This document shows positions 1 to 51,741 of a DNA stretch of 64,000 bases, in pieces. The translations under genes were made by a program, and so were the position numbers. A model generated the notes under the pieces. The model made no database searches. It had not been told where the DNA came from and saw nothing but the letters and a program-made list of their open reading frames with translations. The stretch is from Ceratodon purpureus (lineage: Eukaryota > Streptophyta > Bryopsida > Pseudoditrichales > Ditrichaceae), in the NCBI GenBank assembly GCA_014871385.1, contig CM026433.1, forward strand, positions 5,653,585 to 5,717,584, in the 5' to 3' direction. Within the stretch, counting starts at the first letter, position 1. Each line of letters begins with the position of its first letter.

Positions 1-230
1 CGAAGCAACGTTTCTCATCGTGCTTCATACACAGGGGATCCCGAAATTTCTAGGTGGAAAACGTTGCTACCGCGACGCAGGTTGCGTCGCAGGTCGTAAG
101 CAACTCCTGGGGGGTCGCTTCAATGGGAGCGTACGCATCCTGGGAACGCTTGTCTCGGGCAGCGGCTGGGCGTTTTATTGGGGCAGCCCGAACCTTGGAA
201 TCATATCCGGACCCAGGTGCTTTTGATACA

Positions 231-1407: not shown

Positions 1408-4400
1408 CTAATCATCCTCCGATTCGGAGTAGGAACTTTCACTTCCTTCACGAGAGTCGCTGTTACCACTTCTCCCCGAGCTGGAGGAGGAGGAAACAGA
1501 CGTCTCGTTATCTCCGGAAGCAAACCGTTCTTGAATAATGCCATCTCTCACCGACCTCGTTTTGGACAACAATTCCTCCAATCCATTCATGCGAGCGAAA
1601 TTCACTTCATCTTGACTGGGGGGTCTCTTGAATTCGTTGCCCTGTGTTAAGCATTGTGAATAGTTAGAACCGCATTATCTGTAGTCAATTATAATTACAA
1701 TTCTTCCACCTCATAATATGGACAGTGTAATGGCCAACAATATGATCATCTGAATTGGCATATAAAATGAAAGCACCAAATCAAGACACTCTTAAGTAAA
1801 TCAAATTCAATCTACAGCCCAGGACTTGTAATAACTTAGTCCGACTAGACAAGGTCGAGTCAAAGTTAGCAACTCACTCTATTTGTAGTTTTCACATTCC
1901 AGACTCTAGAATGTAATTTTGTGCTGAGCATGAATTCCAACTTCGAACTCTCTCAAATTCAGAAAATATGTGACACAAATACTAACCACTGGAATCCTTG
2001 CAGGAAAAGGAAATCAAACTTCGTTAAGCAAGCTGATTGCACTCATTTTCCTTAGGTCAACAGAAGAATTCTTACAGATTCAAACTTACATAATAAAGGT
2101 GTTATTCTAGACAACATTTGTTATAAGCATCATTCGCCTCAATCAATCAAGTCAAATGATGCTTAGGATCAATATTGAAGACATGAAGCTCATCATAAGA
2201 ATCAATCCTCTACATTTGATAATAGGTGACTAATCATCTCATAAAAAGCAAACGAGAGTACTGCCAGAGATGATTGATTCTATTGGAGGAGCTCATATCA
2301 GTAAATAAACTATGTTTTCGTGGTTACTTGTTTCCTCCGTGAGTTGACTAACACCATAGTTCAGCGTTGATGCGAATACCCCTCTGTACTGATTTAAAAC
2401 GCTTATGAGAATATTATAAACTCATAAACGACTACCAACTATCACCTCTTACCAGCCATAAAAAATGTCAGCAATAATCTAAGTTGGCCTCAGTTATGTT
2501 GAATTTTCTCATATCGATATTCCAAAACTTTAAAAAAAAAGAACCTAACTGTAAGATATGATTACTCGATTTAGGAAACACAATCAGCTCTAATCCGATG
2601 GGTATCTAGGTTTCAAAGTATCCTAGTTCAGACCAAGCGCCCACGCCAGAGAGGAACAACTCACGTATACAAAACTACGACGGATTTGAACTGCACTAAA
2701 AATTAAATACGGTAATCGGAAAATGACTACTCATCCACTATCACATACGACATGGAGATGTGAGCGGCATATATCCACCACCACCCGAGTAATCTAAACA
2801 CACAAAATACGAACTACCCCAACTCTGGTTCACAGACTTCTCAGATACAAAGTAGATCCATCAGCTACAATATTAAGGAAGTTTGCGTAGACTGAAATCT
2901 AGATTAGAAAATTTTGATTGTATCGCAGCACATTAAGCATCGTTCTAAATCTTAGGAAAAAAAAAACAGAGTCATAAAGCTAGATAATCTGAATGTAAAA
3001 TCAATTGAGGTGAAAAAACTTACAAAAACTTTGTGGACACCATCGTATCCATGTCTGCCGCACTTGTGGCTGAACGTGACCCTCCCCGTAGCCTTACGCT
3101 CCTGTGCCCTCGCTACGCATAGCTTAGACTTCGCCATCTTCACAGGGTCCTTTGAGTCCCTGTAAATTTGCCAGAAGGATTCGGGACTACATGCAATGGG
3201 ACATGGCACATCCTTGGGGTTGTCATAGCATCTGAAACGTGCCTTCACACGTGCTCTCTTCTCGCGTATGCTTTTTCCCAATGAGCGAAGAACGCCCTTA
3301 GATTCCCAGTTCCCTGGGTACTTTGTGCGAAGCTTGAGAATGAACTTTGCCTTCAAAACATTAGACTGTTTTCTCCATTCAATGTGCCAGGGGAAATGAT
3401 GCTGACCTCTGTCATAGCAATATGGCTTCATATGGGCCCAATATTCACCTGCAGGATACCCATACTTGTCAACATGAACCGGAGGAATATCCTTTACCAC
3501 TGGCCAATCTGAACCAAATTGGAAATCGAGGAGATCGCCTGTGGACAGTGCTACACTGGTGCCACCTGGATCAGCCGATCTAATTGACAGAGAACGTTGT
3601 GACAATCCACCAGATGTCATGCTCGTACAATGCCTTTCGTGATCCACATGACGCTTGCGTTTCCCTTTGCTCTTGCTTCCACTCGCACCATCTCCCCTAG
3701 GAGTACCGGGCTCTTGATTCGCTGATGTAGACATACCTCTGATTTGCTGGAAGGTTTGTTTTTGAGCTTCGGCGATCATCTCGCAGAGCTCATCGACAGA
3801 AGATTTTGGCTTCCCACCCTGTACAGAAATTGGATGCAATGCCGCATCAACACGTACCTCTGAGTATCCGCTGTCGAATGGCTCCACCGGACTATTCTGC
3901 TTCAGCCGCGCGTGCTTCACTTGCCGTCCTGCTCCCTTTGAACCAACGTTCTCTGAAATACTCCGACTCTCCACCTTCCTCTGCTGACTGGTGCGTTGTG
4001 TGTCTGTGATGTTAAGTTCCTCATGTGAACCGCTAGTCGAATTAAACAAAGCCCTCTGTGCTGGTGTTAGGTTCCTCAGTAGCAAATGCAACTGCTGGAG
4101 AGTGTCCAGGTTTCCAGCGTCGTCTGACTCCTCTTCCTGCATTCTTGAGTGTCTGCCAACACCGTCAACGTCTGCAACGGTAGCTTGACCATGAGCTGCT
4201 GAAACCCCTCCTCCCGCATCCGCACATACTCCGCTGTCCAGCATCTCCTCTACTCCGTAGCCCGAGTCTCCTCTTCCGCAGTTGTCTTCGAGAACAATAT
4301 GCGGATCCTGACTCCCATGCAAATTCTGATTTCCGTCTTCAAGCACATACGGCATAGGGTTTTCAGTGGTTTGTACCTCGTTATGTGATACGCCGATATC

Positions 4401-4613
4401 ATGGTCATGATCTTTTGGACGCAAACCGACATGAGCCTCACGAACTTCAACACCAAATCTTGCCGACAGAGGGTCCAAAACAGGGTTCGATGTGACAGGC
4501 AGCTTCATCCTTCCAGATCTCTCGCGGTTCTGAGGTGGCTTTCTACGTTCCATACAACCTCCCACCGCACTTCCAAGTTTGTCGTTGTTGGTTTTCTTCT
4601 TCCGCAAAGGCAT
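1408..4613 (-). CDS. TNP1-like / Ptta-En/Spm-family protein A, two exons, 607 aa
   Basis: Exon 1 is 4613-3024 and ends at a GTAAGT donor. Exon 2 is 1641-1408 after a CACAG acceptor. Both junctions are phase 0 and give an uninterrupted 607-residue protein. The first 350 residues are acidic and serine-rich with a basic patch near residues 320-330 (KGKRKRH) that could be a nuclear signal. The C-terminal 200 residues carry aromatic and basic motifs (WHIEW, FWQIYRDSKDP, a K/R-rich stretch, then GVHKVF joined to GNEFKRPP across the intron). This pattern is typical of the plant Ptta/En/Spm transposase family (PF03004-like). The tail is a serine run ending in acidic residues. The second product of CACTA elements binds subterminal repeats and assists TNP2; that role here is inferred. 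It lies head-to-head with TNP2 gene A, as in element B. Confidence 0.72.
1642..3023 (-). other. Intron of TNP1-like gene A
   Basis: The 1.38-kb AT-rich intron lies between a GTAAGT donor and a CACAG acceptor, both phase 0. It contains no ORF of note. The splice is supported because the joined sequence reads on in the pattern expected for the family C terminus. Confidence 0.6.
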
Positions 4614-5943
4614 TGTAAGCGCGTGTCCTACACTGTAAAAACAAGAAACAAAACAGCGGGATTGAGTCAGGAAATGATACTCACTGACTTACAGTAGATC
4701 TCTTAGAAATCCTATAACATAATCTCATGAAAACCCTCCCACTACAACGGTAGTAACCACTATGGGACAATGAAAAGCAATTCCTCTCTGATACTCTCTC
4801 TAACACAGCCTTCTAAGATCACATACAAAACAGTCACCGTGCAAGCCCGAACTTTGTCTTTTCAAGACATGGACGGGCGATGTCAACAAGGGGAACCGTA
4901 GGTCGAATTTTGGTGCTTGAATACCTCGAGTAGAACTGTGTGTACAATGAGCCTCAACCGTCGGAGAACAAACGCACAGAAGGAAAGCAAATCATATATT
5001 TAGGAAACCAACCGGAGTTCCTGCAAGTTCATCTTCAACTACTGCAGTTAGAGAGGTGTCGACAACCTATTAGGTCTCGCTGACATCAGTAGTATCCTCG
5101 TAACTCGGAGATATCCATATCTCTTGAAGCTAAAAGGTTAGCCACCTGATTACATATAATGTGTTTATTATCGTCATCAAAATATTTTCAATCACCTCGT
5201 CCCCTCGTTTGTTAAGGTAACATACCTCTGCCACCGCTATCTATGTCAATGTTGTTTTATTTTTTGGTATTTCATTTGACAGTGAGAACGTGATGTGAAG
5301 GTCATCTTGTTGAAGATGGTTTTTAAAATATTGTGATTGGTATAGGGTTGTATTAATTTCTGTGAATACTTCAGACGCCCAATTTCAAGATATAGTACGT
5401 TGAACCTGGTTGTACACGTAGCAATTTATACCAATATTCAAACAAAAATCCTAACTACTTAAAGGCAATGCCTCTCTTGCAGAAAAAAAGCATCGACTCT
5501 TTCTCTCTAGGCGTTTTTTTCTAATTGAGGTAATAATAATTTCTAAACGTTTTTTGCTCTCAAGATTAAAAGGAATTACTTAGTCAAAAAACAATGGATA
5601 AATAAAAGAAATACATTTCAGTAATTCTATTAAGACGTAATGAATGCTACATATCAAAATATTCATACGGACGTCTTCTTTCATTAATTCAAACATTAAA
5701 TATATTGATTTGATGTGAATTATTTAATTTTTTTCCATATAATTAATGCGTATTTTTCAAAAGAGTATGGCTGGAAAAATGTAGGTTAGTACGAACTAAT
5801 ACAACCGTCATGTAGGCACCTTGTGCAAGATTCAGCGGAACATGGAGTATTCTCTGCAATTCATACGGTATTTCTGGCCGTTGTTTTTGGGGTTTTCCGT
5901 CTTAGTATTCCTATTCTATACTATGGTCCGTCATAATAAAAGC
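4614..5943. promoter_or_regulatory. Divergent spacer between TNP1-like and TNP2 genes of element A
   Basis: This 1.33-kb gap separates two start codons that face away from each other, so promoters or 5' leaders for both genes must lie here or in unseen 5' exons. The half near TNP2 is AT-rich. I could not assign a TATA box with confidence. The paralogous pair in element B is also divergent, with one ORF lying between. Confidence 0.4.
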
Positions 5944-8900
5944 ATGGATCCATCAGAATATGAATCAATGGACATTGAAGCTGCACTACGGCCTGAGCCG
6001 TCCGCAGCACAAGACGCTGCAGTACTACAAGACAATCCCAGACCGAAACGTCGTCGAGCTCCTCCAGGATATAGAGAAGACTCTGAACAGCATCAGTATT
6101 GGTTGGTTTGTCCATGCACGAGATGCGCCAGAAAAGATAAACCCCATGTTCGACTTCACTCTACAGTAATTAAACACATAAGGCAACACCTCATGGCTGA
6201 CAAATATAAGGTGTGTGATCTTTCATCACTTAAATTTTTCTCATGCATATTCTATTTTCTAGGTTTTCACTATAACCCCATCTCCTTTAAAAAGACATCA
6301 TTAGATAAAACATGTACCAAACAGTGGAATGGTCTTTTTTTTTACGTTATAATTTTACAAATTATATCAGGGATTCAAATTAACATTGTTCGTCACTGTC
6401 ATGGATACTGTACTTTTTTTTAGTTCACACAGCTTTCAATACTAGCATTATCAATTACGGTATGAGCGTGAATGTTACGAAATCCTCCCAAAATGATAAT
6501 TACGATAATAGAAACAAATAAAAATAAATGAACTTAGAGAAGTATATGAACAATCAATATAACTCAAATCCATCTTCGTAATTTAACCATGCCATCGTCA
6601 TCTATGTATCAACATCCTATATGCCATGCCCCTGATACTTAGTTGTTTGTTTATTGTTTTTTTTTTTTTTTTTCCTTTTCTTAATTCTTTAAATCTTTAA
6701 ACAATTGATACGTAGTTTAGGGTTCACTTAAACGTAGAGTGCAAAATCTCTACAACTCACTCCATTCAAGAACCCAGGTTTAGACTACATTTTATTTCAA
6801 AAATTAAAGAACCCCTGTATTAAAATTAATACATTTCAAATTACTGTTGAACCATAATACAATGAACAAATAGCAAATCATTGATTCCAAATTTTATATA
6901 TATACAAACATGCTTACAAAAATTCCACAAGAGTAGAAAGGGATAAAAACAGAATAACTATGCAAATCATGTAGTCTCAGGATGATTTTAATTCACCTTC
7001 ATTAACCATTCAAACCCATACATATTCTCCTTCAATAGTTCTTTGTACTAGTGACTACTTGAATCATGTTTTGATTCCTTTTGGTGTACAGTGAGTCATT
7101 AATCACTTATCATATTGCAAACACATTTTTGACATAAAATGTTACAATCATTATGCCTCTCTCGATTGATTAAATCAATTTAGCTTTGCTATTCTGTCAT
7201 TTGAGCACAATGTAAATAGCTTAAACTTAAACCGAGATTCTGCTCAGTTTTTAGTTTTTTAAGCGAGACTGAACATGTATTTCTCAGATGGAGTACGAGG
7301 TAGGTCTGCGTCGCCAGAATCTGGAACACATCCAACCCGGGTCAAGAGCTCGTGATATCCCAGAAATGCAAGCACAGCCACAAGTAACACATCATAAACC
7401 AAAACCATATTATTTTTCGTGTGACAGTGACATTAAGCCTGTAAAGATTCATTTTGATACATATCATATTCACAAATTCTTGTTTTTTACATTAAAATGT
7501 TCCTAAATGTGTATTGATGCACATACATCATTTTAACCCACCAAAGATAACTAGTCAATGGTTTACAATTGGGTGGTTAACATTGCAACACTCTCTAGAT
7601 TATGACTGTAAGTATTTTTTCCAAACATTCTTGATGTATGTATCTAACCACATCAAGGACTCCATTCAGTGTAAATAACCTGATTTCCCTCATCCTAAAC
7701 TAATGCAAAACTATCAAATTATTTTGTCCAGGCACAATACCCAATGGATGACCAAGTTTTCCCAGGAGAACAACCCCCGCAGTCAGATGAATGGGGAGCA
7801 GATCCAGAACATGTGGATTACATGCTATCCAACATTGCTAATCTGGATGGAGTTGGTATAGACCTAGAGAGAGGTCCGGACCCTGAAGCCACATATATGG
7901 AACAGCAAGCCTCGACTCCCATCTACACTGGAGCTAGACGAAGCAGACTCCACTTCATTATAAAACTCCTGAGCTGGCAAGCACGATATAAAGTCCCAGA
8001 CATAGCCGTGGATGACCTTTTGAAGCAAATGCGAGAGGACGTAATACCGCAAGGGAGGAACTCAAATGGAGCTGTCATTCAAAATAACATCCCTGTGAAC
8101 CGTGGAGAGGCAAGGAAGGTAATACGTGAGGTCGGGTTTGATTACGACATCATTGACGTATGCCCATGTGATGACTTTATTTACTATGGACCTGTGAATG
8201 GAACATTGACCCACTGTCCTAGGGAAAATTGCAACTTCAGTAGATATCGCACGGATTTGAAGACCAAAAATGTGCCTCGGAAGAAGATGCATTATTTTCC
8301 GATCAGCCCTAGACTTTTGGCACTTTATCGGAGTCCTAAATACTCCAGACACATGCAGTGGGCAGGCAACAACCGTAGTAATGGCGAAATCCTTCGATAT
8401 CCCCAAGACGGTTTGGCATGGAGGAGATTAGAAGAGACTTGTCCGTTTTTGGTGGAAGACCCCCGTAATGTGGTATTCGGCTTAGCAACGGATGGATTCA
8501 ACCCGTATAGCACAAATTCTGCTTCGCACTCGACTTGGCCGGTTATGCTCATATTGTACAACCTCCCCCCTGAGATGGCAATTAAAGCTCAGCACATATT
8601 GCTCGCTTGCATCATTCCGGGTATGTACTAAGAGTATCAAGCTCTGCAATGTTTACTTTTATTAAAGTAATCCTTGAGGAGGCTTGCTTAGGTAGTGGTT
8701 ACATTTCCTAGTTGTTTGTCAGGTACCACAATTCCGAAAATTATCCTCGCCAACAAGTTTTCCCTGCTCGGTTGGCAAGTTTTTCTTTTCTCAGTTTAAA
8801 TTTGAATCTTACCATCATTGTAAAAATAAAATAATGAAATAATAAAAAAGTATTCCTTCGAACGGTACATATTTAATTCCATTGCATACATATGTTGAAA

Positions 8901-11900
8901 ATTTAACATGCATATTACGATGCATTACATGAATTTTTCAATGATACCATAAGTTTACATGTTGTGTGAACAGGGAAAAAAAAAGTAAAGGATTGGAACG
9001 TGTATATGGAACCATTAGTGGATGAATTATTAAAACTTCATAATGTAGGCGTCGAAGCTTTTGATGTTTCAGCTCCAGAGGGAAGGAGAAGCTTTAATCT
9101 CAAGGCTGCTTTACTGTGGACTATTCACGATTGGCCGGGTATGTTCCTACACAACAGCATGACCGATGTACTTATATTTTAATTAGTACAACATCACATA
9201 GCCATGTTTTCCAGAGTCACTGTTTTCAATATTTTTATTTTTATTTATTTCTTCTTCTTTTCTTTTTTTTCCTTGTTTTTTTGGGAGTCAAATGGTGTGC
9301 AAGAATCCATTGCAAATGAAGTCAAGCACATTGCTGCAAAACTAGGCCAGGGCAAACCCAAAGCCGGCAAACCTGGACCGAACCATACATACAAACTGAA
9401 ACGTACCAAACCTCAAAACTTGAACTTAACTATCTGAAACCATGAGAAAGCATCAGCCTACTAACTGGTGTTGAATATTTCTTCATAACTGCTAACCTGA
9501 ACTCACATAAATGGTAAATGAATCTGGATTTCAAAACTAGCATTATCATCCACCGTATGAGCGTGAAAGATACAGAATCCTTCCAAAATGAAAATAATAA
9601 TAAAAATAATAATAATGAATAAAAATAAATGAACTTAATTAGAAAAGCATATGAACAAATAATATAACTGAAATCCATTAGGGGAATTTAACCAAGCCAT
9701 CGGCATCTCTGTATTCACATCGTACATGCCATGCCCCTCTAATACGTAGTTGCTGGTTATTCTTTTTTTTTTTTTTTTTTTTTATTATTATTTTTTTTTT
9801 TTTTTAATTTTTGAAACAAATGATAGGTAGTTTAGAGATCTGTTAAACCTTGATTGCAAAAACTCTGCAATTCAATCAATTGAAAAACCCAGGTTTATGC
9901 TACTTTTATTTCTAAAATCAAGGTAATCTTGTATTAAATTACTTCCACCTAAATTACTGTTGAACCTCAAAACAGAGATCAGATAGAAAAACTAGGATTC
10001 CAAATAATATATAAATGGTTAATGGATATGGATATTTACTAGTAAACAAATCTGATATTATGAACATATGTTACATATCAATTGACTGAAAAGTCCATGA
10101 TTACAATATTCACATTGGATTGTTCATGTCTTGTGCATGTTGTACATTTCATGAACCATTTTACTCTTGATTCATGTGGTACAACATCACCTAGCTCTGT
10201 TCTTTGCAGGCACTGTTTTTAATAGTTTTTGATAACTGCTCACATGAAATGCTGTAAACGGTAAATGGATATGGATTTTTATTAGTAAATAGGTCAGCAA
10301 GGATGAACATAGTAATTGACTGGAAACTCAATGGTTACAATATTCAGCTTCGATTTTTCTTTTTTTTCTTTTTTTCTTTTTTTTAATTTTTTTTTAATTT
10401 TTTTTTTTTTTTTTTGTTCTGAAGCAAATGAAGCAGATTAGGAGAAGTGGTATAGAGGTTCAAACGAATAAAAATTTGAAATCCTTTGATTCCATGAATT
10501 TCCGTTCATTTGATTCAAAAAATAAATAAATAAACAAACATATCCTTTGATTAGATTTCGCTCTCATGAAACTTACTAGGAACCACGCTTCACCTCACAG
10601 CAAGGTGGCACCTAGTTCCACCAAGTGGGCTATTAACTTACTGGCTTTAGATTGTTACTTTGTCTCGAACTGTTCAGTCTAGAAATCTGTCCTATTAAAC
10701 TCTGGACAATGAACATAGTAATTGGTTTGTTCATGTCATGTGCGTCTTGCACATTTCATGTATAATTTTACTCTAGATTCACCTTCTCCAGAATCACCTA
10801 GCTCTGTTCTTTGCAGGTACTGTTCTGAATATTTTTAATGACTGCTAACCTGAACTGCTATAAACAGTAAATGGATATGGGTTTTTATTAGTAAATAAAA
10901 TAGCACAATGAACATAGTAATTGACTGGAATCTCAACGATTACAATATCAAACCTCAGTTGTTCATGTCAGGTACATGTTTTACATTTGTGGAAAGATAT
11001 TTGTAACCTTCATTTTTGTGCTTGGAATCAGGATATGGATTTTGTTCCGGGTTAACTGTGGGAGGCAACCACGGATGTCCACCTTGTGGACCGGATGGTT
11101 TACAAACACAGGGCAAAAGCAAATTCCTGAAAAAGGTCATCTATATGGGGGCTAGAAGATTTCTTCCCCAGAATAACAATTTCAGAACAAGAAGATACGA
11201 TAAGTTTTTTGGTAATAAACCCGAAACGAGAGCCGCGCCTGAAAGGCCTACTGGAAGGTTCTGGAAAAATCAATGGGAACGCGTGCAGCGGAAGGAGATT
11301 CCCTTACGTGGAAGTGGAATGAACACTCTATCTAGCTTTTACCGGCTTCCATATTTCAAGGTACCTATGTCCACAATCTTTACAATCGTTTGCAAATGTA
11401 ATCAAGTCATTTGAAGCTAGTAAATGTGTGCCATTGTACGACACTTTTGTAGTGGCTGTTGTTGTTAGTGCATGTTTAACTCAATTACTTTTTGAATTTA
11501 ATGTACAATGTAGCAGTGGATAATAAGACAATATAGGATAAAAAGAAAATCAATTAATTTGAAATTCTTTTATGTATGATAATCAAAATCTAAAATATAA
11601 TAAGTTGTTTGCAGGACCTGTTGTTGCCACATTTACTGGACCCTATGCACATCGAAAAGAATATAGGAGTGTCTCTTATAAAGACACTATCAAATGCACC
11701 TGGTGCAAAGTCAGATTCACTTGCTGTTCGGTTGGAATTACAGTCCCGAGGAATGATGCAGGATATGCATCCACGAAGCACCGGCGATATTGACCAGTCT
11801 GGGAAGCCTGTTCTAACTTTTGCGAAAGCACCATGGATTTGGAGTCCTACAGAATTTCAGACAGTTCTTGATGTAATGAAGGGCATTCGAACACCAACAA

Positions 11901-13775
11901 ACTATGGTTCATCATTGTCATACAAGATTGGAGACAAAAAGTTACTGGGTTTAAAAACCCATGATTGGCACAACATCTTGCATGACTTCCTTCCTATTGC
12001 CATTAGGGGGACCCTTACACCAGGGATTCGAGAGACCGTTTACAGACTTTCCCGCTTTTGTAGAAAGATATGTTTGAAAGAGGTCGAGGCGGCCAAAGTT
12101 ACACAGTTGGAAGAAGAAGCTGCTGAACTTGCTACAATGATGGAAATGAATTTGCCTCCACAGTTTTTTGACATCCAACCACACCACATTGTACATTTAC
12201 CAAAAGAATTGCTTCTAGCAGGACCGGTGAGGCCACGTTGGATGTACTTTGTGGAAAGGTACATGAAAGTTCTTAAAGGTTGGGTTCGTCAGATGGCAAA
12301 GCCGGAATCCTCTATCGCAGAATCATACATTACTCATGAAGCTATTAAGTTTGCTTCGGAGTATGTGTCTGGAATTGATCCTAGGTGGGACCCAGCTTGG
12401 ACTGGCCATGATGATGACAAACAGAAGGAGGAGCTGTTACCAAAAGCATTTTTATCAAAAGGTCTCGGTCAAATTTACCATGAACAGGCTCACAGGTTCG
12501 TTCTGATGAACCATCCTCTAGTGACGCCTTGGCATGCAAGATACAACATTGCATCACAAAGTAATCCAAGGATACCCCCTTTTAGGGAATGGTTTCGCAA
12601 TGCAGTTGTTCATGCATTGGACAGTGGTGAAGTCATCAGTGATGAAATACTAGATATTAGCGCTGGACCGTCTAGGAAAGCTGACTTCTTTGCAGGTACA
12701 TCCCATAACCCCTTTCTTTTTTTATGAATTTAGCATAAAGTGTGTTGGTTAAATTTGTTATTAAGTTTCATAAAGTCTTGGATACAGAAAACAGTGAACA
12801 TATTTTTTCTATGTCTTGGTAGACCGTTTAATTCCATAATTAATTTATACACATCTGCAAATAAAGAAAATGAATTATTATATTTTATAGGTCATATGAG
12901 ATCCTGGTACTAAACATGTTTTGGTTTGGAAAACTACAATTGACTAACATTATTTTTTGTTTGCAATAGGAATGTGGTCCCGTGGAAGGCACTTCCGTGA
13001 AGCCAAGCGCGACCAATCAAAGAAAACAGCGGATTCTTACATTTCCTGTTATTTTGATCAAGGCGGAATGAGCGAAAAAACGGAATTTATAGGTCAAATC
13101 AAACATATCGTAAGATTAAATTACGATTCAATTTCTGTTGTTTTATTCAGAGGTATGTGGTGGAACAATAACGTTCGTCAGTATAGACCTAGCACAACAT
13201 ATATTGAAGATGAATGCGGCTTTTTGCGGATCTGGGCAAGAGATTTTATGCCCAATAATCTCCTTCGACATGAACCGTTTGCGTTCCCAAACGATTGCAA
13301 TCAAGTATTTGTGGTGGACGATCGCCTCAACCCTCATTGGAAGCTTGTCGTGGACACCGATGTCCGTAAGATACGCGCGGTAATTCCAACCAGTATTGCC
13401 AATGAAGATGAATTACCTGAAGCATCACTACGAGAGCAAGGAAATCAACGTTCAGAGTCTGATGTAGAAATAGAGTCAGGTGAAAATGTCGGACAAGATT
13501 TGGAGCAAGAAGAATCAGAAGAGGAAAGTGGATCTGATGCGGGTGAGGACGGACGTAATGTACAGCTGGCAGAGGAAGAAATTGGACTGGAGGAAAACGT
13601 GATAACGTATCAACGACGCCGTACCGGTTCTCAGAATATGAACACATCCAACATATTCCCAAACACCATCGAAGGCGATAACTCTGATGGTGATACAGAT
13701 GAATCTATGAGCGACGTGGAAATTGATGACGATATTGCTCCAGAAATGGATGACTCTCAGGAAGTGGAAGCCTAA
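5944..13775 (+). CDS. TNP2 transposase of CACTA element A, seven exons, 1210 aa, intact
   Basis: Exons are 5944-6210, 7288-7383, 7732-8620, 8974-9138, 11032-11360, 11615-12695 and 12970-13775. Every junction is GT-AG and the phases match, giving 1210 residues with no stop. Residues about 55-90 carry CPCTRC and a later histidine, the transposase-associated zinc motif. Residues about 240-560 form the TNP2 core (Transposase_21-like): a cysteine-rich YGPVNGTLTHCPRENC, then LATDGFNPY, VYMEPLVDEL and a GNHGCPPCGP turn joined across intron 4. Exon 6 has LDPMHIEKNIG and a DUF4218-type region (NLPPQFFDIQPHHIVHL). Exon 7 has a DUF4216-type region (ECGFLRIWARD, FVVDDRLNPHWKLV) and an acidic tail. This is the catalytic transposase that cuts CACTA ends. 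Activity is inferred from intactness only. The upstream in-frame leader was not used because ATG 5944 begins the family-like acidic N terminus. Confidence 0.85.
6431..6900 (+). repeat. Dispersed repeat copy 1 in TNP2 A intron 1
   Basis: This segment matches 9532-9980 in the same order. Shared landmarks are CTAGCATTATCA, GTATGAGCGTGAA, TAAAAATAAATGAACTTA, the phrase CATGCCATGCCCCT, a long T-run, and an AACCCAGGTTTA motif. Copies differ by substitutions and small indels, so the duplication is not recent. Confidence 0.7.
9139..11031 (+). repeat. Repeat-filled 1.9-kb intron 4 of TNP2 A
   Basis: The intron holds a second copy of the intron-1 repeat (9532-9980). It is followed by degenerate tandem units near 10010-10250, 10255-10360, 10710-10850 and 10855-10990. 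These share AAATGGATATGG, TTTTTATTAGTAAAT, GAACATAGTAATTGACTGGAA and TAGCTCTGTTCTTTGCAGG. Long T-runs lie at about 9762-9804 and 10370-10415. Several units repeat a sequence ending TTTGCAGG, so they could act as decoy splice acceptors. The true acceptor at 11031 is the one that restores the conserved PGYGFCSG reading. Confidence 0.65.
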
Positions 13776-16700: not shown

Positions 16701-16840
16701 AATTGTGTATTAATAACACAAAATTTTATATTTAATAAGATAGAAAAATAGAACTCTTTGCCCATGTACCGATTTGAAGCAACTTAAAATTTATGAAATA
16801 CTTTTTAAGCAATGTTTTACAAGAATGTATTAAACGTTTA
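13776..16840. other. AT-rich DNA, no gene recognised
   Basis: No convincing gene. It contains microsatellite-like TATATACATACA tracts near 14510-14600. It also has a near-perfect 25-base direct repeat (TAATTAATGTTTTAAATAAA) at about 15350-15400. The first few hundred bases are probably the TNP2 3' UTR. Confidence 0.5.
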
Positions 16841-17490
16841 GGCAAACAAATTAGTTTTTAATTCATCAAGTTAGACGAAATTCATGTTGTTCTAAATTAC
16901 CTTTGTTTTTCTCTTTATTAAATTTACATTGTTAGATTTAATTTTCTTTTTTAAATTTAATTTTTAGGCAATCAGATTAGTTTTTAATTCATCAAGTTAG
17001 ACAAAATTCATGTTGTTCTAAATTACCTTTGTTTTTCTCTTTATTAAATTTACATTGTTAGATTTAATTTTCTTTTTTAAATTTAATTTTTAGGCAATCA
17101 AATTAGTTTTTAATTCATCAAGTTAGACAAAATTCATGTTGTTCTAAATTACCTTTGTTTTTCTCTTTATTAAATTTACATTATTAGATTTAATTTTCTT
17201 TTTTAAATTTAATTTTTAGGCAATCAAATTAGTTTTTAATTCATCAAGTTAGACGAAATTCATGTTGTTCTAAATTACCTTTGTTTTTCTCTTTATTAAA
17301 TTTACATTGTTAGATTTAATTTTCTTTATTAAATTTAATTTTTAGGCAAACAAATTAGTTTTTAATTCGTCAAAGTAGATGAAATTCATGTTGTTCTAAA
17401 TTACCTTTGTTTTTCTCTTTATTAAATTTACATTGTTAGATTTAATTTTCTTTATTAAATTTAATTTTTAGGCAAACAAATTAGTTTTAA
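16841..17490 (+). repeat. Minisatellite, five 126-bp units
   Basis: Units start at 16841, 16967, 17093, 17219 and 17345, exactly 126 bases apart, and a partial sixth begins at 17471. Each begins GGCAA(A/T)CA and contains TTTTTAATTC(A/G)TCAA and CATGTTGTTCTAAATTACC. Copies differ at only a few positions, so amplification is fairly recent. All units are AT-rich and I see no conserved ORF. Confidence 0.92.
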
Positions 17491-18600
17491 ATTTGGGGCC
17501 AACCCCCTGCCCCAAATTTTTTTTCATAGCCATAATCACTGTTTTCTAATTATTGAGTGTATTTTTTAATTTTTTTTTAAGAAAAAATTATGTGTATCAA
17601 GTGTATATCAATCAGTATGTTTTCACCGTTCGGATTTTTCATATTGTGGAATGAGAGTTTTCTAGAATTTTGGAAGCGATATTTGCCAATGTGCTGTGGA
17701 ATCCTACCTTGGAGTTAGTTTATTTTTTTACTGAGACTTATAAACCTTTTTTTCAATTTTTTTTTTTTGAACATGTTCTTGACATCGCCTACTTCTTGAA
17801 TATGAAAAACCACCAAATTGTGTAATGTCAAAATTTAACACCACAAGTGGTCAAACCTTGCTATGGGGGTCGGGCACTTCCAAAAAAAAGTTTTTAATCT
17901 TCATCAAATGTTATAATCTTTTAATCCGTACGGTCAAAAATTATGAAAAAAATTCAGCACTTTCTAAATACCATATCCTTCAAGATCCTACGGTCAAATC
18001 TACAAATAAAACTTTTAAAACAAAAAATTAACAATTCTCTTTAAAAATGGCAGTTTTGGAGACTATTTGGACAAAAATTGTCAAAGTATTTTAGAGGTTA
18101 ATGATATAACATTCAACAACCAAGACAGAAATATATAAAAATCAGTAAAAGATCAGTCTACATGAGCATGCTTAATGAAGGAAACTTGACATACTATTTC
18201 ATATACAACTAAATTCAAATGAAAATTATATATCCTATAGAAATTCCTTAAATTATACTTGTAAAAAAATTATAGATTCAAGTGATTAACCTTTTAATTA
18301 AATCTTCTTATAGTAAGAATTGTAAGATAAATGAAAATTAATCCACTAGTTTAAAATCAGATAGGGGTGATAAGAAATTAAAATTATATGTTATGAAGCG
18401 AATTGAGGAACAAGAATATATTATCATAATTAAATAAATTATATGCATACTTATGTATAAAACTATGACTGTATAGAATGTAAACCCATTCATTGATCCC
18501 TACCTTGATTCTTAGAGTTCAAGGTTTGTGATGGTTAAGAGGTGGATTAGTGGGGGTTTAATAAGTGATTAGTAGGTAATTAGTAAGGTGATTAGTGTTT
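17491..18600. other. AT-rich DNA, no gene recognised
   Basis: The junction with the minisatellite is sharp (AAATTTGGGGCCAACCCC). No supported gene or RNA is visible. The small ORF at 17825-18031 is low-complexity and was not accepted. Confidence 0.4.
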
Positions 18601-23324: not shown

Positions 23325-23465
23325 ATTGTAAATGTAATTGTAAATGCATATGTTAATGTAAATGCAAATGTGAATGTAATTGTAAATGCAATTGTAAATG
23401 TAATCAATTATTTCGTGCAATGTAAATGTATTTGGTTAAATGTAAATGTAAATTTGTAAATTATT
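23325..23465 (+). repeat. Degenerate TGTAAATG microsatellite
   Basis: About 140 bases consist of TGTAAATG, TGTAATTG and TGCAAATG units. It ends just before the tandem stem-loop units and may mark the left edge of the segment that carries the oxygenase gene. Confidence 0.75.
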
Positions 23466-23477
23466 AAATTACATTGA

Positions 23478-23838
23478 AGAACTCGGATGGTGGTTTATCT
23501 TCCCTAAAAAGTTGATTAGCCGGATTCTTGATGTTCTCTACAACAATAATAAATAATCATTTTCACCTACATGGAGAACTCGGTTGGTGGCTTATCTTCC
23601 TAATAAGGTTGATGAGTTGGATTCCTGATGTTCTCCTAAAAAAAAACATAAATTATTAATTTTAAATTTCTTTGAGAACTCGTTTGGTGGATTGTCTTCC
23701 TGAGAGGGTTGACCTTCCGGATTTCTGATGTTCTCTTTAACTCTATAAATTTAATAACATCTAACATATATTAGGGGAACTCGGTTGGTGGTTTATCTTC
23801 CCAAAAGGTTGATAAGTCGGATTCTTGATGTTCCCCTA
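23478..23838 (+). repeat. Four tandem stem-loop units with AT-rich spacers
   Basis: Units lie at about 23478-23537, 23573-23636, 23674-23735 and 23772-23838, a period of 96-101 bases. Each begins with (G)AGAAC or GGGGAAC and ends with its complement. Unit 2 pairs GGAGAAC with GTTCTCC, and unit 4 pairs TAGGGGAAC with GTTCCCCTA. The A-to-G change in one arm is matched by T-to-C in the other. Between the arms are conserved blocks CTCGGTTGGTGG, TTATCTTCC, GGTTGAT and GGATTCTTGATG. A second pairing (TTATC with GATAA; GTC with GAC in unit 3) also covaries. Spacers are unrelated AT-rich sequence of 35-39 bases. A fifth, decayed start is at about 23872. The function is unknown. The pattern fits a structured RNA or paired protein-binding sites 5' of the oxygenase gene. 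Confidence 0.85.
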
Positions 23839-23925
23839 GAAAACATATAAAATATTATCTAAATTTCATTTGAGAATTCATTTGGTTTTTGATTTTAATG
23901 AGATTTTAAATTTGTTTTATACAGG

Positions 23926-25416
23926 ATGGAAGACCAAAAAAGAGGAAATAGAAGACCATCTAAACGACCATCAAAACGGCCCCGGGAGAGTGTTAACTTA
24001 CCAAATGGTCAAGATTTCATATTAGGGGAAGATGAAGACTTCTTTTGTTCCGCATGTTCTAAAACTGTTGCTCGCCAAGGACTTGAAGAACACTTCAAGG
24101 GCAGAATTCATAAGAACATGGAGAAGTTAGAGTTATTCTACCCTTTTCTATTGAAACAGGGTCTCAGTTGGATGGAAGGGAGAAAGAGTTTCAGATGTGA
24201 CAAGGAGTGTTGCCAAAGGGGAAATTTGCCAGCAAATTATGAACAGCTTGAGCAACATGTGTTCAAAAAACACTTCTCTACCGTTCAACCTTTCTATCCT
24301 CCTCCATCACCATTAGGTTACAGGGGTTCTCAAGTACCGAAGATTATTCATGGCAATCAAGGAGCAAAGCAGACCAAGAAGTTCTGGAAGAACTTTGATT
24401 TACTTTCAGCGATTGCAGATTTCAAGAAGCTTACAGGGCCCACTACTATCCTCTCGGATGGTGGAAATGAATTTCTTCTTCAAATTGTGAATGGAGATTT
24501 CAGTGAGAGTGATGTTAAGGAGATGACTACCTTGGCATCATACCTTGCGAAAAAAGGTAATCGTGTGAGGAATGATGATAAGAAAGAAGGGATAAAAGAT
24601 GGAACTAAAATGATGTGCTCCGGTTTCCGCCATGGCCAAGGTTATATTGGAAGGTAAGTTTTATTAAACAAAGACTACTTTTATGTATATTTTTTAACAT
24701 TTTGTTTTATCTATCTATAGTTTAAGTCTTTATAATTACTTTTACATAAATCTATTTTTTTGTACATATTTTTGTAGGTTTAAGCAGGATGATCCTCTCT
24801 GCTACTCTTATGGTGATAAGTTAGCTTCTATGCTTTACCACCATTTGAGGTCCCTATTTCCTCTAGTCTTGGAGCAGTTGGAGATGATTTGGGCCAAGGA
24901 GAATCTACCAGCTGGTATTGGTAGAGTTGGTGACTCTCCTTTCACAGCTATCAGTGTTACCAAGGATTATTCCTGTAATCCCCACACAGACGAAGGAGAT
25001 CAGAATTATGGCTTCTTTATATGGTTGGGAGCCAATGGTAAGTATTCTGTAATTCTTCAAACTTTACATTATGTCTTTATTATCTTTTTTTGTTTTTAGG
25101 TTTTTTAATTTAATTGTAATTGTATTTTTTGAATGTAGGTACTCAAGATGATGCTGGAAATGAAACGAGGTTTTATTTTCCAGCTCTTGGTTACTATTTT
25201 GAGCCTGCTATCGGAGATATTCTTCTTTGCAAGAGCAATGAGATAGTTCATTGTTCGAAGACTATTGGATCAACAGGACAATTGGGCATTGCGTTGTTTC
25301 AGAGTTGTACATTTTTCCAGGGTTATCATCTATTGGAGCAGAAACTCCGTGACGGTATTAATGACCGTTTCACTAAGAGTTGGCTAGATTCTGAGAGATT
25401 TTATGGTGCTGATTAG
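23926..25416 (+). CDS. Zinc-finger plus TET/JBP-like Fe(II) dioxygenase, three exons, 421 aa
   Basis: Exons are 23926-24653, 24778-25037 and 25139-25416, with GT-AG junctions and matching phases. An acceptor-like ATACAG lies just before the ATG, so a 5' leader exon may exist. Residues 10-20 are a basic KRPSKRPR signal. C41, C44, H56 and H62 form a C2H2-like finger, and C91, C95/C96, H111 and H116 a second. The C-terminal half has the double-stranded beta-helix pattern: H312-x-D314 in NPHTDEGD, then YYFEPAIGDILL and H367 in EIVHCSK. The order and spacing fit the TET/JBP superfamily, which oxidises 5-methylcytosine or thymine in DNA. The arginine expected 10-15 residues after the last His to bind 2-oxoglutarate is not seen (the site reads STGQLGIALF). 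It lies between the stem-loop array and the right end of CACTA element A. The family call rests on motifs only; another 2OG-oxygenase branch is possible. Confidence 0.7.
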
Positions 25417-30129: not shown

Positions 30130-30282
30130 CCTCTCCTCAAACGTTGCTTCGGGCTTAAAAACGTTGCTTCTGTTCATAGTTCCTGGTGCTGGAAGCCTGA
30201 GAACCGAATGGAAGAGAAAGCGTTGCTTCCCCGGGTAAACATTGCTTTTAAACGTTGCTTCGCGGGGGAGTTTCTAGTAGTG
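30130..30282. repeat. Right terminal and subterminal repeats of CACTA element A
   Basis: Copies of CGTTGCTT lie at 30142, 30162, 30221 and 30252, with a variant ATTGCTT at 30241. The unit ends in TTTCTAGTAGTG at 30282, followed by ACT, whose complement AGT would be the 3-base target duplication. Repeated motifs with a CACTA tip are diagnostic of this superfamily. Confidence 0.75.
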
Positions 30283-32105
30283 ACTGTTCTCCCTCAAGCT
30301 GGTCAGGGAAGGATTCAGTACATATCCTCATGTACTGAGATTGATGAAACTCACATCGAGTATTCAGGATTCTCTTAACAAGAGTCCCATCGTGACTAAA
30401 CTCAGCTTCAAGTAAGCGATTTTTTGAATCCTGCGCAAGCTCGAAGTGCTCATAAAATGTCGTTACGTTTCTTCCATCCATTCTAGTCCGCTTTCCAAAG
30501 AATGGGCAAGTGAATCTACGGACGTCTGATCCACTGATCTAAGAATCCTGTTTCCAGAAATGAGAGTATCTCAGCACGCTGGCCCCCCAGATAACACTTC
30601 GTGACCCGCCTTCAGGATTGCTATACTTCAACATTTGAAGATCTGACATCCATCGTTTCCATCGCCGGCCCGCATCGGCCTGAAATCTGCAAGAAAATCC
30701 TCACCTTAAGTCCGATTAGCATGCTAACAACTTATAATAAGTAATTTTGAGGGCAAGCTACAGCTACACCATGGTGATGAGTGCAAATGAAAATAACAAC
30801 AATAGCAGAACACATCCAGTATGTATACAGTATATAACAATAACATAACATGAATGCAGCCCATAGCTGTAGAACTGGTCGCCAGTCATTGGATAGTAAG
30901 AAGAGCACGCTTAAATCTCATAACCAAGGTTGCTTCAAAAAAGCACAGTCACTGCAACTACTTGAAAATGTGAAATAAAACAGAAGAGTGCTTCGACGCT
31001 GGAGTTCAAGTGCATCATCCTAGTGCGCAAGAGTTGATCTAATACTCAGAAGTATCTGAAAGACGATGTTAAAGGCTTCGTGATTGTAATCAGTACCAAA
31101 ATCTATATTCAAAGTGACTATGGATTTCATAATTGTTCTACTCTCGGAGACAGAGGAGAACCGTTTCTTCCTGTAAAGGAATTTAGTAAAAATCAAGCCG
31201 TCTGTATCAACTCTGTAACCTAAGAAAATTGAAACTAGGCGATTGAGACCTTTGACATATTCCATGGCTTCTTAAGAAATTTAGCTTGTGGGCTACGAAT
31301 ATGTCTAGTGCCAGAAATTTACAATTTAATTTCTGAGCGGGAGAATGACAAGAATGACACTGTAATTGAATAGTAAGCTGAATTAGTTAGTAGCCACGAA
31401 AGGCAGAAGGGAGCACAGGATGCTGAATCATTTCTGTCCAAACTTCTGCAAAAGTGGTATGCCAAGAGCTCTCTAATCACAAGAAAATGTTCAAGAATTA
31501 CAGCTGCTAGGGCCTAGAGCCACCATATCAAAGAAACAGCTTTGACATATACATACTACCATTGGAGGTGTAGAATTTCGTACCTCAGAATGATACCCGA
31601 GGTTACTGTGCAGCTTCAGGCGCCAAACACTTTCCCGTCGCAGAAAATAAGCCCTCTCTCTTCCGATCTGTTAGAGTTGGTGCACCCAGGTGTGCATCTG
31701 AAACCCACGCATACAGATACGATCCAGTTATGATTACCTTATGTGCTTTAGGCAACTGGAACGAATAAAACTCTTCCAACCGACAAATTCTCAAGATCGA
31801 TCTCAGATATCAAAAACTGAAGATATAAGTAACAGGATACATGATCACTGCGATTCTAAGTGCAACTCAAGCATTCTACTGCTAGTGCCATCCAAAGGAC
31901 TCTACCTCCAAGAGGATGCATCAAGAATTGTGCATTAAAAGGAGACATTCAGTACCTGGTCTTGATTCACGCTGGTTAGAGTTCCTCGTCTTCTCACCAT
32001 CCAATGAAATGGACACTTCCTGAAATCCCCAAAAAGCAGATTGCCATCTAGCACTCAGCATATGGTATTTCTTCGGAGACAGGGCACAACCGCCTTGTCC
32101 TTCAG
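30283..32105 (-). pseudogene. Unrecognised host gene, interrupted by the end of CACTA element A
   Basis: Minus-strand exon-like pieces are visible. The piece 32105-31956 is bounded by TTCCAG and GTACTG and encodes CALSPKKYHMLSARWQSAFW. One near 31190-31020 encodes KKRFSSVSESRTIMKSI. The last runs from about 30690 to 30283. It reads GRRWKRWMSDLQMLKY, passes a TAG at about 30541, then continues in the same frame as FTCPFFGKRTRMDGRNV to SFPDQLEGEQS. There the frame runs straight into CACTACTAG. So the transposon end appears to sit inside coding sequence, with the rest of the gene beyond the left edge of the window. The TAG is either a nonsense mutation or part of a TTCTTAG acceptor. I do not recognise the family. 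Confidence 0.4.
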
Positions 32106-32357: not shown

Positions 32358-32961
32358 GGGTTGAAATGGTCCCCAGCACTGTCCACTGTATGCAATACAG
32401 TGAAGAGTGCACTGTTGAGGCTTTTCTCGGAATTTTTAATTGCTAGTTCAGGTTGGTGCTTCTCCATCAACTAACGTAACTCGTGTGGCACTCATCCTGA
32501 CAGAGATTTTGCAACCCTGGCTCGAGGCGCAGATCGATACGTGTTGTTGACAATTTTAGTGGAGCACCTGTAAGTTGGAAGTTTTGTGATTTTTGTGTTT
32601 TTTGCATGCACTGAAGTTGTGATCATGGTGTTGGATGCGGTGGAGTAGGTGCGCTTGAATTTGATTGGAATTTAGGGTTTGAAACCCGACTTGAGTCATC
32701 TCAAAAATCCTGAAATACAAACGAACTTGGCTTTTCTCCGTGGATCCGAAGGTCATCAGGTGTGAGGACCCATCTTGTGGCAGATGCTTATTTCGTATGT
32801 ACTGTTCTTGAGACGGGTCCTGAGGAGGCCCTGTGTTCTTGAGGGAAGGCTCGAGGTTCTGGGCTGGGGGAGGATGCTCCCCGAAGTATAGAGCCGTGTG
32901 TGTATGCAGCCTGACCCGTTGCGTGGAGCTACGGTTTCGGAGATATTGCTCGGGATTGTAT

Positions 32962-35220
32962 ATGGAGCAGTCTCTTCGTCGTCGTTTGATAGATGGAGCA
33001 GTCGACTCGTCGTCGGCGGATGAGCAGCTTAGCTACTTCGATAGTGGTCTTCCGGACGAGATTAATCCACCGGGCGAGATTGGTCTTCGTGTGGAAATTG
33101 AGGCCCCGACTGGAGCCGAATCTCCCTCTTGCGTGTTTCCTCAGGAATCTCCTTCGAGCATCAGGCAAGCATCTGTCACGCAAGGAATATTACCTGAGCT
33201 GCAGGCAAGAGATTTGCCGAGCAAGCGCCTGCTTGGGAAAGGTCTGGCTAGCATTGTGTATGAGACGGAATTGAACGGAATGAGGTTTGCGAGAAAAGAC
33301 TTTGCAGGAGTACCAGTTGGCATCTTTAAATATGAGGCAGCTAAACTGGTAGATCTAAAGGACCACCAGAACGTTGTGAAGGCACATGCTCTGACCATTG
33401 GCAAGGCGAGCTGCTCGCTTGTTTTGGAACATATGGACGATGACCTTCTAGCCGTATTGCAGAAGAGAAAGAGGCATAAACGGAGATTGGCTCGCACAGA
33501 CTCTAGCAATCAATCTGAAATTAGTCCTACTCCTTTTGAACTGCCAGAAGCATTTGGCTATATGTTGCAGATTGCTAGAGGCATGGAATACCTGCATGGT
33601 CAAGGGATTTTTCATGGAGATCTTAAAACCAAAAACATTCTAGTTGCTTATGTGAAAGATGGGGACAAGAGCTCGCTGTTATTGAAAGTGGCTGACTATG
33701 GTCTTGTTCAGACCAAGAGGAAAAGCATGTCACATGTTTCTCGCCAGGCACGGAAGCTTGATATGGTTCGATGGAAAGCACCAGAAGAGTTAGAGATGCT
33801 GCTGCTGGAGGATAAAGGCGAGACATCTTCAGATTCAGGTTCTGATGAAGAGCTTATAGGATCATCAAGCGTTACTGACCGCCTGCTTAGTGCCGATGTC
33901 TTTAGCTTTGCATTGACATGCTTTCATATCTTGACCGGTGAAGAGCCATATCCAAATCAAAATTGGAAAGAGTTGGCCACTAAAATTGTGTTCGATGAAC
34001 TCAGACCAACGTTACCTGCTGCATGCCCGCTATTATTGAGAGACCTTTTGGTAAAATTCTGGAGAGAGGTTCCTGCTGAACGACCTAACTTTACCCTCAT
34101 CAGGAGAGAGTTGGAATCTCTGGAATCTCTGCACATCACTGAAAAGGTACAGTGTTAAACTTCACCTATTTTTTCAAAGTTCTTGTTTCAAATATCTACT
34201 TGAAGCCATAATAGACAGATTTAAGAATGAAAGTAACGTATCTTGTCCCAAAGGGTTACAGCTTGGTTATGTGACCAGTTCTGTGTCCACTTGGACACCA
34301 GTTCTTGTCAAGTGTAGTATGAAGTTGGAAACATGGCGGCTTTATCAGTATCAAGGATAGAACTTGTTCTTACCAGATGTAACATCTTTCTCCAAATTAG
34401 GATTCATTACATCCGTTTGCCTTGTCATTTAATCTTACACATGTATATGCAGGCGGTTGATCAAAGCTCATCAATTTCGACCGAAACGTTTGATGTGAAA
34501 GAAAGTTCTGTGTCAAGCAATCCAAGGAATCCGCCAACCCGTCTCCAACCCACAAGTGATCCTCAAGTTGGTTTATCGAGTGTTGGAAGTGAAGCAGTAT
34601 TTCGACGATTTCGTGCAATCACAAACACTGACCGACCAGGTCCTGAAGTTGCTTCATCAAGTGCTGGAAGTGAAGCAAAATCTCGTACAATCAAATCCAC
34701 AAACACTAACCTTCCAAGTTTCGAATTACCATCCGCCAAGATCGAAGTGAAGCTTAAGCTCGAGCGTCCTATCGACAGCGAACTTTTCAGACGCTTGGAA
34801 AACGACCTCAATCACCATTATAATATGCGTGAGTTCTCTCTTCATCAAGTTGTCAAAATATTCTAAATTATATTGTTGTCAAAATATGGGGATTGCTCAC
34901 ACCCTTACAAGAGCCTTTGTAGCTTTCGTCAGATGTATGCGATTCTAACCAGGAGTCGATGTTGCCTTGCTATGTGTGCAGAGGTTTTGAGAACAGACAG
35001 GAACTGCATATTAACTGTTACTGGTTGTCCTCCTGTTAATGGTTTCGACGAACACACTATTCTGGCTATAGTTCAGCGATTTGTCGGCGGTAAAGCAACA
35101 CTTCTTCAGGCTTCCTTCATCGATGAAGAAATAATAGTGTCAACGTCCTCACCAGCTCAGACTAACGACCTCATGCAAACTCGAAATGGTGACCCAATAT
35201 ACCGTTGGCAATGGAGTTAG
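32962..35220 (+). CDS. TKL-like protein kinase with unrecognised C-terminal domain, three exons, 599 aa
   Basis: Exons are 32962-34146, 34453-34828 and 34982-35220, with GT-AG junctions and matching phases. ATG 32962 is the first ATG in this frame near the kinase. The longer upstream reading starts with GTG and was not used. Residues 1-88 are acidic and low in motifs. Kinase residues 90-390 show LGKGLASIVYE (glycine loop), K112 in FARKDF, E125 in FKYEAAKL, H218-G-D220-LKTKN225, D245YG, APEE at 273 and DVFSFA at 312. Lys, Glu, both catalytic Asp and Asn are present, so activity is plausible, although HGD replaces HRD (non-RD) and DYG replaces DFG. After a serine-rich linker the last 110 residues (VKLKLERPIDSELFRRL through LTVTGCPPVNGF to EEIIVSTSS) look like a compact alpha/beta domain I cannot name. 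The substrate is unknown. The gene appears intact. Confidence 0.85.
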
Positions 35221-50715: not shown

Positions 50716-51741
50716 TCACGTGCCGCTTACACGGCCTTTTTGTGACCCGATTTTGCACCTAATGAATCCAGAGCTGCAACTTACGTGCCAATAAGGTAAA
50801 TCAAAAAGAGCGGAGACTCTTTTGATGCCAAATAGCCTTGCTGGGTCTGCAGAAGCTGGGCTTGCGCCGAGGGCCTCCCAACTTTCGCGCAATTGCCTCC
50901 ATCGAATCACATCTGCAGAAGTCACTCTTGAGGGTGGTCTACGTCTCTCCTCTACGCCACCCCAAACAGAGCTAGCGGCCCTCCAAGGATGATCTTCGGG
51001 CAAAAATATGCGGTACTGGTTGTCATACACATTCTTGTGTAGGGCGAGAGACCGTCTGGAGATCGTATTAAGCCCACATACAGGGCACCCACGGTAACCC
51101 TTTGTGACACAACCAACGACAATCCCATATGCGGGAAAGTCGTGAATTGTCCAGAGTAGTATGGCTTTCATGTTAAAGCGTGGTGAACCCCCATACATTG
51201 AAGCATCCTCTGTATACACTCCAGTATTCCATAAGATTTTAAGTTCATCAAGAAGAGGTTGAATATAAACATCAAAATTCTCACCTGTAACTGATTTTTT
51301 CCCTGGTGTAATGAAATTAAGCATTATGAAATGCCTCTTCGTGGTCATCCACGGTGGCAGGTTATAATTCAAAATTATAACTGGCCATGTGCTCCATGTA
51401 GAGCGTTTTACAGAAAACGGATTGACTCCATCTGTAGCTAATCCAAGTCGCAAATTCCGCGGTTCAAAGGAAAATTCAGCCCGCCATCTCCAATTGATAA
51501 ACTTCCATTGATGAGAGTCCACTGCCCCCCGCATCACCCCATCCTCGCTCTCGTTTCTGGCATGCCAGGTCATATAAGAGGCTTGTACTGGCGTGCTATA
51601 CATCCGCTGCAGTCTAGGAATTAGCGGAAAGTGCCGAAGAACCTTTATAGGTACCTTACTTTTGCCCACCATTTTGTACCTCTCTGCAGAACACATAGGA
51701 CACTTATCTAGCTCTTTGTACTCGGGCCCCCTCTAAAAAGG

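Follow-up and report, generated by a model that had tools for sequence, protein, structure and literature searches.

Transposons of many fungal lineages, EnSpm included, carry TET/JBP genes, and it has been argued that they escape methylation by this means (Kojima 2025, PMC12730594). In plants, activation of the maize Spm transposon by TnpA correlates with demethylation, and VANC of the Arabidopsis VANDAL elements targets tandem noncoding repeats, as summarised in PMC10398659. The TET homologue CMD1 uses ascorbate as its co-substrate, according to the account in PMC7854593. The presence of any TET-type enzyme in land plants is described as controversial in PMC6949463.

The window, a 64,000-nucleotide stretch of DNA from the moss Ceratodon purpureus, contains a three-exon gene whose product joins two zinc-finger clusters to a domain resembling these enzymes. 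The gene lies between the ends of a transposon. The features of both are collected in Table 1.

Table 1. Positions in the window of the transposon, its transposase gene and the TET/JBP-like gene
Feature	Positions	Strand	Remarks
Left subterminal region of CACTA element	1-100	.	
578-codon open frame, in the place of the second CACTA gene	2952-4688	-	TnpA-like by place only
Tnp2 transposase gene, exon pieces	5800-13775	+	Pfam domains
Tnp2 piece: Transpos_assoc	5800-6420	+	E 0.14 only
Tnp2 piece: Transposase_21 (PF02992)	7699-8628	+	E 4e-25
Tnp2 piece: DUF4218	11594-12724	+	E 9e-30
Tnp2 piece: DUF4216	12948-13772	+	E 6.5e-5, below its cut-off
Tandem repeat immediately upstream of the gene, four units of ~100 bp	23459-23876	+	Starts at 23477, 23574, 23674, 23775
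Exon 1 of TET/JBP-like gene	23926-24653	+	Both C2H2 clusters
Intron 1	24654-24777	+	GT-AG
Exon 2	24778-25037	+	H312-x-D314, D317
Intron 2	25038-25138	+	GT-AG
Exon 3	25139-25416	+	H367, L382 (opposite the 2OG arginine in the alignment), F388, stop
Right subterminal repeats AACGTTGCTTC	30140-30261	+	Three exact, one with one mismatch
Right terminal inverted repeat	30249-30282	-	27/34 first bases equal to left end
Target site duplication ACT	30283-30285	.	Partner copy at C13:5653562-5653564, just left of the window

Exon structure and resemblance to TET/JBP and CMD1

When the three exons are joined, the spliced gene of 1266 nt encodes 421 amino acids followed by a stop. Exon 1 specifies a first zinc-ligand cluster, C41-x2-C44...H56-x5-H62, and a second, C91-x4-C96...H111-x4-H116. 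The conservation of these residues was assessed in an alignment of three family members: the window protein, a relative from the same genome (L042, 43% identical) and a relative from a metagenome (P0002, 50% identical in this alignment and 44% by local alignment). All eight cluster residues, together with H312, D314 and D317, were invariant among the three, and H367 was common to the single relative that extends that far. The unspliced frame of P0002 continues beyond exon 1 at the matching point (IGR, then ...F), in agreement with the first splice site. The original prediction of a three-exon frame, a 421-residue product, two CCHH clusters, H312-x-D314 and H367 was confirmed, and both introns are GT-AG.

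The best Pfam match of the protein was Tet_JBP (E 2.6e-4, with 20.7 bits against a curated cut-off of 34.9, which is not reached), and a second, weak match was likewise TET-like by name (E 0.12). Since Tet_JBP was matched at this E-value, and by all three family members scanned, the reading as a gene goes beyond chance. A search of 177,635 solved sequences with a three-sequence profile ranked Chlamydomonas CMD1 first, with a weak match (PDB 7cy4, E 0.0019) that spans the catalytic stretch only, and ZNF346 second, over the first zinc finger (E 0.12); TET2 and NgTET1 were absent from the six matches of this search. When the solved sequences were searched with the single sequence, CMD1 came third (E 0.064), after two teneurin-like proteins (E 0.023 and 0.024) whose matches are located elsewhere in the query. 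These results uphold the earlier claim of two zinc-finger clusters fused to a domain nearest the TET/JBP families, and the comparison with solved structures that had been proposed as a check, made here by sequence profile, put CMD1 on top with HxD...H aligned. Judged from these matches, the catalytic domain is very probably TET/JBP-like. We use this label, and not that of a proven TET/JBP enzyme, because the Pfam score falls under its cut-off and because an arginine discussed below is absent.

Searches of a protein collection for relatives returned four proteins in total, three of them pieces of exon 1 and none named as fungal or algal, and no relatives turned up in viral contigs scanned with P0002. 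The predicted structure of a truncated relative was a poor model, with a mean pLDDT of 42.

In the profile alignment to CMD1, H312, D314 and H367 align with H345, D347 and H397, and D317 aligns with D350, the Asp five residues past the first His. In CMD1 this Asp contacts N4 of 5mC, a place taken elsewhere by Asp or Asn (N1387 in TET2, D234 in NgTET1), and the arginine that holds the C5 carboxylate of 2OG (R1896 in TET2, R289 in NgTET1) is aligned with R410 of CMD1, which points away and makes no contact with the co-substrate, CMD1 being active nonetheless (as described in PMC7854593). At this place the moss protein has Leu382, and an arginine within 25 residues past H367 was found in none of the 12 intact copies of the gene described below, all 12 of which retain HxD, D317 and H367. 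Since the arginine for the C5 carboxylate is missing by alignment, oxidation by the standard chemistry is not to be assumed.

These residues bear on a chemical variant of our main reading, in which the protein would be a CMD1-like enzyme working with another co-substrate in place of 2-oxoglutarate, ascorbate for instance, and its product would be a bulky modified cytosine and not oxidised 5mC. The variant draws on CMD1 as the nearest solved structure with TET2 and NgTET1 missing from the profile matches, on the leucine in the place of CMD1 Arg410, TET2 Arg1896 and NgTET1 Arg289, on the use of ascorbate by CMD1, and on the abundance of ascorbate in plants reported in PMC11066809. However, a nearest match at E 0.0019 does not establish shared chemistry, and other residues may hold 2OG; L042 has Arg at positions +3 and +23 after its His. 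We regard this variant as distinctly improbable.

The CACTA element around the gene

The window copy of the gene sits inside a CACTA (EnSpm) DNA transposon of 30,302 bp. Its left terminus (C13:5653565; locus L044:481) precedes the window by 20 bp, and a 556-base stretch across the window edge there reads ACT directly followed by CACTACTAGAGAATGGCGCCCGAAGCAACG; the right end, in reverse complement, reads CACTACTAGAAACTCCCCCGCGAAGCAACG and then ACT. The first 10 bases of the two ends are identical, and none of 200,000 random pairs reached the 27 equal bases seen over a length of 34 that was picked after the ends had been seen. When one mismatch is allowed, the subterminal motif AACGTTGCTTC occurs 10 times in the window, against 1.15 expected, two of them at the left end and four at the right end. 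Between the element ends, Transposase_21, DUF4218 and DUF4216 follow one another in order on one strand. The 578-codon frame had no Pfam match at E values up to 5, nor was it significantly similar to a Transposase_24-like ORF in another copy.

With its ends, ACT duplication, subterminal repeats and Tnp2, the 30,302-bp element is a CACTA/EnSpm transposon by the usual definition, and in the window copy one pair of ends encloses both the gene and the element's own transposase gene, an arrangement that other copies show only partly. From this arrangement, the TET/JBP-like gene is almost certainly transposon cargo. A multi-copy gene within a complete CACTA transposon most likely has its selected role for the transposon, and the suggestion that this is a plant gene giving the plant a different demethylation route did not find support.

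A position near 18098 in the window was considered as the left end of a smaller TET-bearing element. It was rejected, since other copies extend further leftward with sequence that they have in common with one another, and since the true left end is found 20 bp beyond the window edge. At about 18092-18108 there is a junction inside the element, where a dispersed repeat of ~600 bp (~17500-18101) meets sequence shared with the TET-bearing copies; this is probably a nested insertion or a recombination point. A 126-bp tandem repeat in five units occupies 16837-17493, and similar sequence occurs elsewhere in the genome. The left flank of the insertion (L044:1-480) is open for ~160 codons on the minus strand, and the element may therefore have landed in a coding stretch. 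To the right of the transposon, by ~2.5 kb, the window holds a frame with a protein kinase domain (32824-34155, plus strand), followed by a second Tnp2 transposase (50716-51732, minus strand; Transposase_21 E 3e-65) and a DUF4100 frame (59040-61640, plus strand).

Copies across the genome

A search of the 362-Mb genome (151 contigs; 99 of 429 candidates scored) gave at least 139 matches to the gene, and copies lie on 11 of the 13 contigs C1-C13. Among the matches listed, most of exon 1 was matched at 81% identity or more in 20 places. The exon lengths were equal in 19 of these 20 copies (L028 is short by two bases), all four splice dinucleotides were canonical in 18, and the frame was uninterrupted in 12. 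The dN/dS ratio was 0.13-0.26 in 21 pairs among seven representative copies, with L027 left out, and 0.33-0.46 in the seven pairs involving L027, a decayed copy with eight stops. This indicates that selection has maintained the protein in most of the compared lineages and that some copies are in decay. Over exons 2-3, dN/dS was 0.10-0.17 in the 10 pairs that differ there by over 20 synonymous changes, and scattered between 0.13 and 0.52 in pairs with fewer.

Selection on exons 2-3 matters for an alternative in which a TET/JBP-derived protein has lost its oxidation activity and serves as a DNA-binding accessory to transposition or anti-silencing, like TnpA, with the zinc fingers as its working part and the dioxygenase fold as a scaffold. 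CACTA elements normally require a DNA-binding second protein, and the lack of an arginine after H367 in the intact copies and the Tet_JBP score under its cut-off would also fit such a role. Against it stand the HxD, D317 and H367 residues kept in every intact copy, the dN/dS of 0.10-0.17 over exons 2-3 in the 10 pairs given above, and the example of CMD1, active though its aligned arginine does not touch the co-substrate (as described in PMC7854593). We consider an inactive accessory unlikely, and prefer the reading of the protein as a base-modifying enzyme.

The introns of the window copy (24654-25138) are 96-99% identical to those of 16 of the 19 other copies, and the exons of these are 94-96% identical; synonymous differences are far more numerous in exon 1 than in exons 2-3. 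Such a pattern may reflect gene conversion or constraint on the introns. A tandem array at C9:8954178-8980007 has at least 25 units at a spacing of 1044 bp, each matching residues 6-263 at 63-64% identity, and is a piece of the TET/JBP-like gene turned satellite.

The gene and its upstream repeats are common to the copies, and the flanks split into several groups; CACTA termini of one kind close at least three of these groups. The C2 and C5 copies share one end, ...TTTCTAGTAGTG, past which their sequences part, and this end is also found at position 30282 of the window. A terminus pattern, CACTACTAGARANNCC, had 48 matches in the genome against eight for the reversed control. Eight of the 48 lay within 20 kb of eight of the 20 copies, every one pointing towards the gene, against a mean of 0.13 termini and a maximum of 3 under random placement (20,000 trials); within 35 kb there were nine matches, against a random mean of 0.23 with no trial above 4. 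Since five of the eight termini (the window, C2, C5, C1:1.85 Mb and C12:10.97 Mb) had gone into the making of the pattern, only three are independent (C7:17.84, C10:2.76 and C13:11.33 Mb), and these three still equal the random maximum. A CACTACTAGARANNCC terminus was lacking within 20 kb in 12 of the 20 copies and within 35 kb in 11. A looser terminus pattern gave 401 matches against 129 for its control; among the matches listed, two C4 copies had a possible left end upstream, at distances of 24 and 29 kb, which is about the chance expectation.

Matches to Tnp2 lay within 20 kb of five of the 20 copies against 0.29 expected, the five being the window copy, which itself supplied the Tnp2 query, and two duplicated pairs. 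For the pair at C1:1.85 Mb and C12:10.97 Mb, the Tnp2 ORF lies outside the terminus that closes the TET-bearing piece and so belongs to an enclosing or neighbouring element, which weakens it as proof of linkage. At locus L023, DUF4216 is found ~3 kb past the gene. Two intervals of ~31 and 32 kb have the same kind of termini and a 67% identical Tnp2, with no TET match among the matches listed, which is the pattern expected if the TET gene is optional cargo.

The C2, C5 and C7 copies (L012, L015, and L010 with L029-L034) are 99.4% identical over 22.7-26.1 kb, and in them the TET gene is flanked on either side by internal inverted repeats several kb long. The idea that they form a unit without CACTA genes was dropped, as a CACTA terminus and a weak Transposase_24 match (Pfam, E 0.0053, in the C5 copy) were found; Tnp2 was not seen in the sequence examined around these copies. 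Three intervals of ~1.43 kb (C2:21406076-21407509, C4:9638884-9640317 and C5:3082964-3084393) have CACTACTAGAAA at their two ends, on opposite strands; as in the C2 and C5 TET elements, one of the two ends reads CACTACTAGAAATCCC. They are probably short non-autonomous derivatives.

The distribution of copies also bears on a reading in which a gene of the host, with its own epigenetic role, was amplified by chance alongside neighbouring repeats. Purifying selection and the presence of copies on most of the contigs C1-C13 would suit such a gene. However, several copy groups share inward-pointing CACTA termini, the window copy lies within a complete element with a target duplication, and the decayed copies and the tandem array of fragments resemble the life history of a transposon. 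A host gene is highly improbable, and we rejected this reading on copy number and on the complete element in favour of transposon cargo.

Four ~100-bp repeat units lie immediately upstream of the gene in all 20 copies. A 25-base piece of the unit had 36 matches in the genome with at most one mismatch, 26 beside a listed TET match and 10 not. As tandem noncoding repeats are what VANC targets, the upstream repeats are, by analogy, our best candidate for a self-target of the protein, though a tentative one. Copies whose TET exons are at least 90% alike sit in elements of visibly different subterminal sequence, which argues against the zinc fingers reading the subterminal repeats.

Proposed anti-silencing role and comparison with known systems

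As an explanation of the whole, we think it probable that the CACTA-borne TET/JBP-like gene encodes a transposon anti-silencing enzyme. Its two zinc fingers would bring the protein to DNA, probably to the element's own noncoding repeats, and the dioxygenase-like domain would then modify 5-methylcytosine, through oxidation or through a CMD1-like ascorbate-dependent reaction. With host methylation gone or left unread, the transposase gene would then be expressed. The effect would be like that of VANC proteins or of maize Spm TnpA, but reached by direct base chemistry. Taken in parts, action of the protein on 5mC in DNA is a reasonably likely prediction from its sequence, and the prediction that it counters the silencing of its own family is favoured by a little less. 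A more specific version has the CACTA transposons of plants equipped with a zinc-finger-guided enzyme of their own that modifies cytosine, and whose co-substrate pocket differs from that of TET2 and is nearer to that of the ascorbate-using CMD1. Aimed at the element's own repeat array, the enzyme would rewrite methylated cytosine there and so let the element evade plant methylation without the plant's glycosylases; with all these parts together, this version is doubtful.

If a TET/JBP-like gene is indeed under selection in plant transposons, it would provide a concrete enzyme to test. TET/JBP genes carried by transposons, known from fungi, would then occur in an element of a plant kind as well, and the known plant anti-silencing factors would be joined by a direct chemical route. 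Signals resembling 5hmC, or TET-like transcripts, in mosses might then stem from transposons.

To our knowledge, a TET/JBP-like cargo gene does not belong to the usual description of plant CACTA/EnSpm transposons. No TET/JBP gene in a plant transposon was found among the literature titles and abstract openings listed, in which few subscription journals are covered. In their abstract, Iyer et al. 2014 (PNAS) reportedly mention transfers of fungal TET/JBP genes to some Viridiplantae, and the bare presence of TET/JBP in a plant is less novel for this reason. A land-plant CACTA element with a zinc-finger version of TET/JBP appears new.

Of the systems described so far, plant CACTA/EnSpm transposons share with the moss element the CACTA ends, the 3-bp target duplication, the subterminal repeats and Tnp2. 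TnpA and VANC are alike in being plant transposon-encoded factors tied to the loss of methylation on their own elements, but the account in PMC10398659 names no dioxygenase for them, whereas the moss protein is predicted to modify the base directly. CMD1 (PDB 7cy4) is the best solved-structure profile match, in which HxD...H and the 5mC-contacting Asp align; unlike the moss protein, it is treated in PMC7854593 as an algal protein, and the sections of that paper cited here describe no mobile element. The fungal transposons of PMC12730594 likewise hold a TET/JBP-type gene in a DNA transposon with its own transposase. According to the same paper, the EnSpm members have CAC..GTG ends and 3-bp duplications, TET genes are shared between transposon lineages, and an escape from methylation-based silencing is proposed for them as it is here. 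The moss element differs from them in belonging to a land plant, in being a ~30-kb CACTA element with Tnp2, DUF4218 and DUF4216, in the two N-terminal C2H2 clusters of its protein (the term 'zinc finger' is absent from the main text of PMC12730594), and in the four ~100-bp repeats conserved upstream of its gene.
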